A DNA stretch of 64,000 nt. Source: Synechococcus sp. RCC307. Lineage in GTDB: Bacteria; Cyanobacteriota; Cyanobacteriia; PCC-6307; Cyanobiaceae. The DNA is taken from contig CT978603.1 of NCBI GenBank assembly GCA_000063525.1, positions 1,297,105 through 1,361,104 of the forward strand, in the 5' to 3' direction. The notes under the pieces were generated by a model. That model searched no databases, was not told the origin of the DNA, and saw nothing but the letters and a program-made list of their open reading frames with translations. This document shows positions 8,873-45,056 of the stretch, piece by piece (position 1 is the stretch's first letter; each line of letters begins with the position of its first letter). Made by a program: the position numbers and the translations under genes.

Positions 8873-9006
8873 GCCTGATCGCTCTCTAGGAGCGTCTTAG
8901 CCAGAGGTGCTCAGAGGGTCGCAAAACCGAACCCAACGGATCGGTTTGAGCGCTTCCTTGTGACCTGCCAGCCGCTCTAGAGCAAGAAAAGACGAAAGGA
9001 GAACCC

Positions 9007-9105
9007 ATGAGCGCACTGACGATCATCCGAGCCCACAACAAAAAAGCCCAACGCCTGCAGGCCGCACAAAAGCTGATGGCACGTCAGCAAAAAGGTGGCG
9101 CCTGA
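9007..9105 (+). CDS. 32-aa microprotein, paralogue of the one at 43828
   Basis: A 32-residue ORF with a strong AAAGGAG ribosome-binding site 6 bases upstream. It is basic, without cysteines or a membrane segment: one amphipathic helix ending ARQQKGGA. A second 32-residue protein at 43828-43926 shares length, pattern (IIR/LVR start, a Lys/Gln/Ala-rich helix) and the ending ARQQHGAA. Two such ORFs with good ribosome-binding sites argue that both are translated. The next ORF starts inside its stop (TGATG), suggesting translational coupling. Function unknown. Confidence 0.7.
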   Translation: MSALTIIRAHNKKAQRLQAAQKLMARQQKGGA

Positions 9106-9227
9106 TGGATGTTCTTTCAGAGGGCAACCTGCCCAGCTGGATCACACTGGCCGCCTTGATCGGCGCCATTGCCTTGATCAATCAATTTTCAAGTTCTGTG
9201 CAAAAGGGCTGGCGCCGCAAAGCCTGA
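9105..9227 (+). CDS. 40-aa single-span membrane peptide
   Basis: The ATG overlaps the stop of the 32-aa microprotein by one base (TGATG). The 40 residues form an acidic, polar N-terminus, a hydrophobic helix (WITLAALIGAIALINQF) and a positively charged tail (GWRRKA), typical of small thylakoid or plasma-membrane peptides with the tail on the cytoplasmic side. No family recognised. Coupling with the upstream microprotein suggests they are produced together. Confidence 0.6.
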   Translation: MDVLSEGNLPSWITLAALIGAIALINQFSSSVQKGWRRKA

Positions 9228-43113: not shown

Positions 43114-43724
43114 GCACTGGCTTTGGGCCCAAGGGCTATTGGGATCAGCGTTTCGCCAGCGCGGGCTTTGTCTATGGGGAGCAGCCCAACGATTTCCTCA
43201 ACGAGCACGCCTCTGGGCTCAAGGCAGGCCAGGCCCTTTGCCTGGCCGAAGGCGAAGGCCGCAATGCGGTGTTTCTCGCCGAGCTTGGCCACCAGGTGTG
43301 CGCCCAAGACATCAGCCCTGTGGGGTTGGGCAAAGCCAAGGAACTGGCGCACCGACGGGGCGTCAGCATCAACACCCTCTGCTGCGATCTAGCCGCGTTC
43401 CATCCCGAACCAGCCAGCGTTGATCTGATCGCAGCGATCTGGATGCACGTGGAGCCTGACCTCAGAACCAGGGTGTTCCAGCACGCCATTGAGGCCTTGC
43501 GGCCAGGGGGACACCTGCTGATCGAGGCCTACAGCCCCAAGCAGCTGGGATTCAGCAGCGGCGGGCCCACGCGGCGGGAGCTGTTGATCGATGCAGCCGA
43601 GCTGAAGCACGAGCTCGCAGCCTTGAAACCGTTGATCCTCCAAGAGGTCGAACGGGAGATCGCTGAAGGCAGCGCCCATCAGGGGCCTAGCGCCGTGGTG
43701 CAATTTTTCGGCAGCAAACCGTAG
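43110..43724 (+). CDS. Class I SAM-dependent methyltransferase
   Basis: 204 residues with an N-terminal YWDQRFASAGFVYGEQPNDF signature, motif [32 protein letters not shown] and the later ALRPGGHLLIEAYSP. This layout is that of the tellurite-resistance/thiopurine-type methyltransferase subfamily. Translation is coupled to the preceding hydrolase gene (ATGA), which is unexpected for the two activities. Confidence 0.85.
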   Translation: MSTGFGPKGYWDQRFASAGFVYGEQPNDFLNEHASGLKAGQALCLAEGEGRNAVFLAELGHQVCAQDISPVGLGKAKELAHRRGVSINTLCCDLAAFHPEPASVDLIAAIWMHVEPDLRTRVFQHAIEALRPGGHLLIEAYSPKQLGFSSGGPTRRELLIDAAELKHELAALKPLILQEVEREIAEGSAHQGPSAVVQFFGSKP

Positions 43725-43827
43725 CGGTCGCTACCAAAAACTGTTATTCTTTTGTCACGTTGATCCCTAAGGGGATGCAGCTCGATTCCAGTCAGGCAAC
43801 GGGGGCTGGAACGCTGTCAGGAGACTG

Positions 43828-43926
43828 ATGAACATCCTCCATCTCGTGCGTAAGCAGGCCACCAAACAGCAGGCTCTGCACCAAGCACAAGTGTTGCTGG
43901 CTCGCCAGCAACACGGCGCCGCTTGA
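43828..43926 (+). CDS. 32-aa microprotein, paralogue of the one at 9007
   Basis: 32 residues, no membrane segment, beginning MNILHLVRKQ and ending ARQQHGAA. It has a CAGGAG site 6 bases upstream of the ATG and its own terminator, so it looks like a stand-alone transcription unit. Upstream, TGTTATTCT near 43741 is an extended -10-like box and the leader contains two small hairpins. Its likeness to the 9007 microprotein in length and ending is described under findings. Confidence 0.75.
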   Translation: MNILHLVRKQATKQQALHQAQVLLARQQHGAA

Positions 43927-43933
43927 TCCATCT

Positions 43934-43961
43934 AGCCCCGGCCCAGCCGGGGCTTTTTTTT
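43934..43961 (+). terminator. Terminator of the 32-aa microprotein gene
   Basis: AGCCCCGGC, a CCA loop and GCCGGGGCT form a perfect 9-base stem followed by TTTTTTTT, seven bases after the stop at 43926. This is the strongest classical terminator in the window. Confidence 0.9.
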
Positions 43962-43965
43962 GGTC

Positions 43966-44139
43966 CTAAAACTTGCGCAACTCCCGCGGCGGGCGTGGCT
44001 GCGCTGGGGCGGCAGGAGCCGTCGGTGCCGCTGCTGTGCCAGAGCCCTGAGGCGGATCGCACTTGGGCTCTTTAATCGCCAAAAAAATCACCGCCAAGGC
44101 CAGCAACGCAATGGCTGCACTGTTGAGGTGGTTACCCAT
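43966..44139 (-). CDS. 57-aa single-span membrane protein with proline-rich tail
   Basis: A hydrophobic helix near the N-terminus (AAIALLALAVIFLAI) is followed by KEPKCDPPQGS, an Ala/Pro/Thr-rich stretch and a basic end (RPPRELRKF). The ATG is at 44139. It overlaps none of its neighbours and lies just after the microprotein terminator. Function unknown. Confidence 0.6.
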   Translation of the reverse strand: MGNHLNSAAIALLALAVIFLAIKEPKCDPPQGSGTAAAPTAPAAPAQPRPPRELRKF

Positions 44140-44141
44140 GT

Positions 44142-45056
44142 TCACGGTGTAGCCATGACAAGCGGGTCTGCCAGATCACAACTGCGCAGACTCTGCTCCC
44201 AAAGCTGATCGGCAATCGCCTGTTGTTTGGCGCCGCTGGGCCATGGAACCCGCTTGGGGTAGCCGCGCATCTGCAGCAGGCCATCGGGACCGAAATAGTC
44301 CAACGGCTCCACACCGGGGTCAGTGGCGGCGCGCAAGCTGGGCAGGGCGCCCTGGGGGGCTGGCATGGCCAACCAGGCAGGCATGTTTTGCATGTTGGGG
44401 CTGTGGCGCTGCAACTCCGTTGCCGTCACACCTGGGTGAGCAGCGCAGGCCACCACTGATGAGCCAGCTCGTTTGAGGCGGCGCGCCAAGGCCTCAATGA
44501 AAAGCAAGTTGGCCAACTTGCTCTGCCCATAGGCGGCCCAGGGCTGGTAGCCCCGGCGCTCAAAATTCAAATCGTCAAACACCATCCGGCCGAACAGCGC
44601 CGCGCCACTCGACACCGCGACAACCCTGGCTGCCGTTGCCGCTTGCAGCAGCGGCAGCACTTGCAACACCAGCGCGAAATGGCCCAGATGGTTGATGCCG
44701 AATTGCAGTTCAAAGCCATCCACCGTGCGCCCCGCCGGCGGCACCATCACACCGGCATTGCAAATCAATAAATCGAGCTGCTGATGGGCCGCACGCAGCT
44801 GGGCGGCGGCAGCAGCGACGGAGGCGAGATCCGCCAGATCCAAAGGCAGCCACTCCACCGAACCCCTCGGGGCTTCAGCTTGGATGCGCTCGATGGCCTG
44901 TTTGGCCCGCTGCTCGTCGCGGCAGCCCAGCAGCACCTGGGCACCTTTGCGGGCGAGCTGCAAAGCAGCTTCATAACCAATTCCCGTGTTGGCGCCTGTG
45001 ACAAGGGCGAGCCGACCGGCCTGATCAGCCATGGCATCAGCGGTCCAACGTGCCAT
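44142..45056 (-). CDS. Short-chain dehydrogenase/reductase, retinol-dehydrogenase-like
   Basis: 304 residues with the NAD(P)-binding TGANTGIG motif (about 20-27), LICNAGVM, VAVSSGAALF and the catalytic YGQSK. The arrangement resembles protochlorophyllide reductase/retinol dehydrogenase-type SDRs, but LPOR-specific cysteines are not recognised. Substrate unknown. The next gene on + starts 87 bases away, divergently. Confidence 0.88.
   Translation of the reverse strand: MARWTADAMADQAGRLALVTGANTGIGYEAALQLARKGAQVLLGCRDEQRAKQAIERIQAEAPRGSVEWLPLDLADLASVAAAAAQLRAAHQQLDLLICNAGVMVPPAGRTVDGFELQFGINHLGHFALVLQVLPLLQAATAARVVAVSSGAALFGRMVFDDLNFERRGYQPWAAYGQSKLANLLFIEALARRLKRAGSSVVACAAHPGVTATELQRHSPNMQNMPAWLAMPAPQGALPSLRAATDPGVEPLDYFGPDGLLQMRGYPKRVPWPSGAKQQAIADQLWEQSLRSCDLADPLVMATP

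Follow-up and report, generated by a model that had tools for sequence, protein, structure and literature searches.

A probable small mRNA with a glutamine-II riboswitch, an NtcA-type promoter box and a predicted helical microprotein in Synechococcus sp. RCC307

Locus layout and riboswitch aptamer

The window (the whole 64,000-nt stretch of Synechococcus sp. RCC307 DNA analyzed here) contains a compact plus-strand unit downstream of an ORF that ends at 43724 and was called a methyltransferase gene in an earlier note on this DNA. The unit opens with an NtcA-type box, GTAGCGGTCGCTAC (43721-43734), a perfect match to the NtcA consensus GTA-N8-TAC. The box is followed by the extended -10 box TGTTATTCT (43742-43750; hexamer TATTCT at 43745-43750), a structured leader, the Shine-Dalgarno sequence GGAG (43820-43823, within CAGGAG at 43818-43823) with a 4-nt spacer to the ATG, and an ORF of 32 codons plus stop (43828-43926). 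An intrinsic terminator follows, in which the stem AGCCCCGGC-CCA-GCCGGGGCT (43934-43954) folds as a 9-bp hairpin and the T run extends to 43961. The next ORF downstream is small, convergent and on the minus strand (43966-44145). The predicted RNA is about 205 nt long, its ends being placed from sequence. The earlier note had described a self-contained unit with a promoter of its own, two leader hairpins, a CAGGAG site, a 32-codon ORF and a terminator, and all of these are found in the sequence, with the -10-like box moved from about 43741 to the position given above. Missing from that description were the pseudoknot, the NtcA-type box and the identity of the leader.

The leader is identified by its sequence as a glutamine-II (downstream-peptide, type 2) riboswitch aptamer. 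The Rfam covariance model RF01704 matches positions 43755-43811 (51.9 bits; gathering score, 33; E = 1.1e-9). The two hairpins noted earlier correspond to aptamer helix P1 (ATCCC 43763-43767 with GGGAT 43772-43776, loop TAAG) and helix P2 (TTCCAG 43786-43791 with CTGGAA 43806-43811). In the Rfam alignment, CGUUG at 43758-43762 pairs with CAACG at 43797-43801 to form the pseudoknot, which is followed by the long-range pair C43778-G43802. The bases GCA and AACGGG, to which excerpts of PMC6698751 assign roles in the ligand site, are present in the window and invariant across the alignment described below. The locus thus has the aptamer sequence, P1, P2, pseudoknot and small ORF directly 3' of the aptamer that are known for this riboswitch class. 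The pseudoknot has been seen in a crystal structure (PMC6698751, in part); its closing pair is G-C in the window aptamer but C-G in the crystal construct.

Covariation was assessed in 34 aptamers, picked by us from about 60, that belong to loci with the helical peptide described below (helix-class loci). Of the helix cells, 96.3% were paired, and 10 of 19 pairs had changes on both sides, including three of the five P1 pairs and six of the eight P2 pairs. The covariation score was 0.505 compared with 0.191 in shuffles, none of 500 shuffles reached 0.505, and the score was at most 0.109 when the structure was slid. All pseudoknot cells were paired, with four pairs invariant and the fifth present as G-C in 29 sequences and as C-G in five. 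One P2 pair was unpaired in 11 of the 34 sequences and one P1 pair in six. The earlier note had stated beforehand that its reading would fall if the hairpins carried no compensatory changes across strains; such changes were found, and the reading passes this particular test.

Excerpts of PMC6698751 describe ON behavior for glutamine-II riboswitches and suggest translational control. No conserved expression platform was identified in the fold of the window RNA or by comparison across riboswitch loci, and conserved structure at the loci read was limited to the aptamer and terminator. A linker pairing, GCAG with CUG 5' of the ribosome-binding site, was seen in the window fold and was rejected as not conserved: its CTG occurs in 23 of 91 loci outside the helix class and is absent from several helix-class loci.

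The peptide, its family and other riboswitch clients

The 32-aa peptide was present in all six genomes of the genus at 81 to 100% identity, and it was identical in three genomes whose ORFs differ by 4 to 6 nucleotides. Of the 24 sites that vary among the six orthologues, 17 were third codon positions, with dN of 0 to 0.11 and dS of up to 2.46; in the closest pair, L053 and L054, which differ at three sites, dN (0.035) exceeded dS (0.023). The ORF evolves as coding sequence and is under protein-level constraint. AlphaFold predicts a single helix spanning residues 3 to 29 (mean pLDDT, 81.5). The peptide has a net charge of +4 and zero acidic residues. Its helical moment was no better than that of shuffled sequence (0.468 of shuffles were as high). 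Neither DUF4278 (PF14105, YRG motif) nor any other Pfam family matched the window peptide at E values up to 10, in a test in which YRG-type control proteins did match Pfam. Likewise, the peptide had no match in NCBIfam and no sequence relative in the PDB. Residues 1 to 23 matched the PHROG family phrog_545, which is of unknown function (E = 3.2e-6).

A family profile built from five short peptides was searched against 151 genomes sampled from the taxonomic family (E up to 0.1) and matched 55, a slightly high figure that includes a few short, partial matches (13 positions; in G090, G113, G142 and a second place in G121) that probably arose by chance. Aptamer-like sequence lay within 125 nt upstream of 49 of 52 peptide loci, which had been found without use of the RNA, compared with 45 of 1449 control windows; L041, L046 and L049, in which the aptamer or gene is cut by contig ends, were excluded from aptamer counts, and the peptide of L134, whose locus is also cut by a contig end, was left out of the reading. 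The three peptide loci that lack an upstream aptamer (L059, L060 and L146) are riboswitch-less paralogues within the genus. An Rfam scan of 20 family loci placed 15 at or above the gathering score and L132, L139, L141, L142 and L144 below it. When a broader profile was run on 194 genomes sampled from the phylum, it matched 12, each belonging to the source organism's own family, and RF01704 scored 43 to 56 bits at the three of these loci that were scanned. The peptides form a small, widespread, helical and unnamed family that usually lies behind glutamine-II aptamers in related picocyanobacteria. Other genera likewise encode peptides of 31 to 33 aa that consist of the helix alone (L131, L136, L143, L144 and L182), and in other relatives the helix is fused with YRG segments or the helix motif is present a second time. 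Relatives of 59 aa with the helix motif twice (KRADRLHKAQL and, C-terminally, KAKRLHDAQLMA) were seen at L186, L188, L190, L191, L199 and L202 to L206, among others.

Published glutamine-II riboswitches are mainly associated with DUF4278 (PMC6316151, in part), unlike the window locus, whose client lacks this domain. We compiled 106 riboswitch loci from 56 genomes, 15 of the helix class and 91 outside it, in which the class proportions are not unbiased because 60 added loci were picked by us from the best-scoring matches listed; two loci each appear twice, as L108/L129 and as L109/L128. A YRG-type ORF was present in 86 of the 91 non-helix loci, in agreement with the published association. In all eight genomes that are at least 98% complete and carry only one RF01704 copy, a helix peptide follows it. 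G025 (95% complete) is an exception, as its single copy precedes a YRG protein (L121), and single copies of the YRG type are also seen in several less complete genomes.

Two further client arrangements were observed. At L089, L091 and L095, glutamine-II aptamers lie 5' of ORFs of 101 to 104 aa that resemble neither DUF4278 nor the helix peptide and have repeated PVI...LW motifs and a hydrophobic segment. In G131 (C1:753969-787746), four glutamine-II aptamers with YRG-type ORFs (L065, L066, L068 and L069) lie within about 34 kb as a local expansion, and L065 and L066 encode identical peptides.

The window also encodes a paralogue of the peptide (9007-9105, plus strand) that lies outside this transcript, is 32 aa long and 47% identical, and has no riboswitch. 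It overlaps the beginning of a 40-aa ORF (9105-9227) whose product has a hydrophobic segment. A different hairpin, GCAAAACCGAAC...CGGTTTGA (8921-8949 in the window), lies 5' of both this paralogue and L146 (32 aa each); its exact pattern was found in only two of 151 genomes, both of the genus.

Promoter geometry and comparison with known systems

The -10 box ends 7 nt 5' of the A immediately before the pseudoknot strand, which would place the sensor at the very start of the predicted RNA. By the -10 spacing across helix-class loci, the predicted start is this A, at 43757, and the transcript probably begins at the first aptamer base. The motif TAN3T occurred at the window's spacing in all 10 helix-class loci of the genus, against a frequency of 0.18 in shuffles. 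In the 46 helix-class loci with a strict NtcA box, TAN3T ended exactly 7 nt from the base 5' of CGTT in 41 and 8 nt from it in one, and was missing in four; this base was an A in 44.

Of the 106 riboswitch loci, 102 have an NtcA-type box no more than 60 nt 5' of the aptamer, where 1.46 were expected from shuffles (L087, L108, L109 and L121 lack one). The window box is centered at -29.5 from the predicted start, over the stretch where a -35 element would be expected. Across the genus, 10 helix-class loci have a complete aptamer, and their boxes are centered at -28.5 (three loci) or -29.5 (seven loci). A strict box was found in 46 of 59 helix-class loci and was lacking in 13; in 23 of the 46 it was centered at -16.5, overlapping the -10 box, which is its position in CGTTCGTCCC-type loci. 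The NtcA box of gifA is centered at -30.5 in Synechocystis and at -28.5 in Anabaena, both regarded as repressing positions, that of gifB is centered at -7.5, and the activating position is -40.5 (PMC6316151, section 2.4). By comparison with gifA and gifB, and against -40.5 for activation, the boxes at the window and helix-class loci would occupy repressing positions.

The window locus resembles gifA and gifB, which encode the glutamine synthetase (GS) inactivating factors IF7 and IF17, in that it encodes a small basic protein and would have its NtcA box in a repressing position. Like gifB, it has a glutamine riboswitch (PMC6316151, in part). The predicted control logic, off via NtcA at nitrogen shortage and on at high glutamine, is that of gifA and gifB, while the window peptide has half the length of IF7. 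Homology to IF7 was tried as an explanation and found no support when profiles were compared alongside column-shuffled and reversed controls: hhalign gave a probability of 0.8% between the window peptide family and IF7, and 14 of 200 column shuffles scored as high. PDB searches with IF7 returned three matches with E values of 0.52 or worse, none of them convincing as relatives. IF7A was not found in the 151 sampled family genomes, a search that could miss distant homologues because the model stayed below its own cutoff even in the Synechococcus elongatus control.

Yfr6 of Prochlorococcus, a 244-nt RNA with a 33-aa ORF (PMC1242208 and PMC2518516, in excerpt), has a size, architecture and nitrogen-linked control in common with the window RNA. 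Its level falls on nitrogen depletion (PMC1242208, in excerpt), and Weinberg et al. (2010) later assigned its 5' part to the downstream-peptide motif (excerpts of PMC2864571). The same source places the start of Yfr6 about 20 nt 5' of the motif, whereas the window RNA is predicted to start at the aptamer. As a class, the non-helix riboswitch loci (a comparison made apart from Yfr6 itself) mostly carry YRG-type ORFs and have their NtcA box 9.5 to 15.5 nt 5' of the A preceding CGTT. For the downstream-peptide gene PMM1846, an upstream NtcA motif and IF-like properties are noted in a review (PMC6316151, in part).

Neither the riboswitch nor this kind of transcript is new. As far as our literature search shows, three points are added here: a DUF4278-free helix family as client, together with its breadth; the almost invariable presence of an NtcA-type box whose promoter spacing is fixed; and the helix peptide as sole client in the near-complete single-copy genomes. 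The search found no description of the helix family in print, and it did not extend to the additional files of Weinberg et al. (2010), which mention a conserved amino acid sequence that may be the helix.

Proposed function, alternatives and cyanophage relatives

We are confident that the locus is a small mRNA of the Yfr6/downstream-peptide kind under double nitrogen control. When nitrogen is short, NtcA bound at its box would, judging from the site's position, cover the -35 region and block the promoter. At high glutamine, the pseudoknot would close and translation would be allowed, the ON direction being that reported for the riboswitch class. The product would be the basic 32-residue microprotein, coding by comparison and predicted to be a single helix, and it is probably made only when nitrogen is plentiful. 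In a further step, suggested by analogy with IF7 and IF17, the peptide would bind a target and dampen nitrogen assimilation, thus acting as an inhibitory microprotein in the manner of an inactivating factor, with GS as the first candidate.

GS as the actual target is a tentative assignment, to which we give clearly less than an even chance. Marine picocyanobacteria seem to be without full-length inactivating factors, and the control of their GS has been called unclear (section 2.7 of PMC6316151, in part). As the peptide family has the right control logic, this question narrows to one that can be tested directly, namely whether a 32-residue peptide binds and inhibits GS. The same doubly controlled mRNA could also encode a peptide with another partner, such as PII, N-acetyl-glutamate kinase, PipX/NtcA, a transporter or an RNA, which we consider an even prospect. 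Other nitrogen-controlled small proteins of cyanobacteria bind such targets (PMC7760959, in part), and the helix family shares no detectable homology with IF7. Against a partner other than GS, the promoter is laid out like that of gifA, and the failure to find IF7A in the sampled family genomes leaves a similar role free.

Three further readings fare less well. The earlier note had proposed a dual-function RNA, whose transcript would also base-pair with other RNAs in trans, and the same idea is in print for Yfr6, which was likened to the bifunctional RNAIII (excerpts of PMC1242208 and PMC2518516). The transcript is indeed short and structured with a tiny ORF, and a perfect 10-bp hairpin, GTGTTGCTGG-CTCG-CCAGCAACAC, lies inside this ORF (43891-43914). 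However, L050 has only an imperfect version of the hairpin and L053 has none, the structure that is conserved is the cis-acting glutamine riboswitch, and the ORF is constrained as protein, so that we regard the proposal as very unlikely. A toxin-antitoxin type unit, as suggested in print for Yfr6/Yfr14, would fit a small, basic and in this case toxic peptide, and the antisense RNA Yfr14 overlaps Yfr6 in Prochlorococcus (PMC2518516, in excerpt), but a metabolite riboswitch and an NtcA-type box indicate metabolic control and make such a unit highly improbable here. Short ORFs behind structured leaders can also be attenuators; that this one is merely a leader or attenuator of a neighboring gene is barely credible given the terminator directly 3' of the ORF, the convergent orientation of the next ORF and the conserved peptide sequence.

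A broader extension of the doubly controlled mRNA reading is that the helix peptide, and not DUF4278, would be the ancestral core client of the riboswitch and the picocyanobacterial GS inhibitor, a minimal and unrelated counterpart of IF7 that cyanophages carry to steer host nitrogen flow. The helix clients of the eight single-copy genomes and the lack of IF7A matches in the 151 family genomes support this extension; with the exception in G025 lowering our estimate, we consider it unlikely, at roughly one chance in four.

Cyanophage copies of the peptide suggest that viruses may use the same nitrogen lever. L122, a 62-aa relative, matched phrog_545 with an E value of 7.9e-16, and as a tblastn query it matched 26 cyanophage records, some of which are duplicates of one genome; the 32-aa window peptide gave no match to phages by tblastn. 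The N-terminal helix is common to the window peptide and the cyanophage family phrog_545. The six phage members that were read are longer (54 to 58 aa) and all combine the helix with YRG segments, which the 32-aa window peptide lacks. In S-CBS2, a 66-bit glutamine-II aptamer lies directly upstream of the phage peptide gene, and two other phages have subthreshold aptamers (27.0 and 24.8 bits) 5' of the preceding ORF. In the T4-like cyanophages of L208 to L212, the helix peptide comes second in a cassette of two ORFs, and the first (53 to 64 aa) sits between CGTTCATCC and GACGCA...ACGACTGAAGGAACGG. This arrangement resembles a glutamine-II aptamer with an entire ORF in the P1 loop, and in L208 and L210 it is preceded by a second, weak aptamer-like element.
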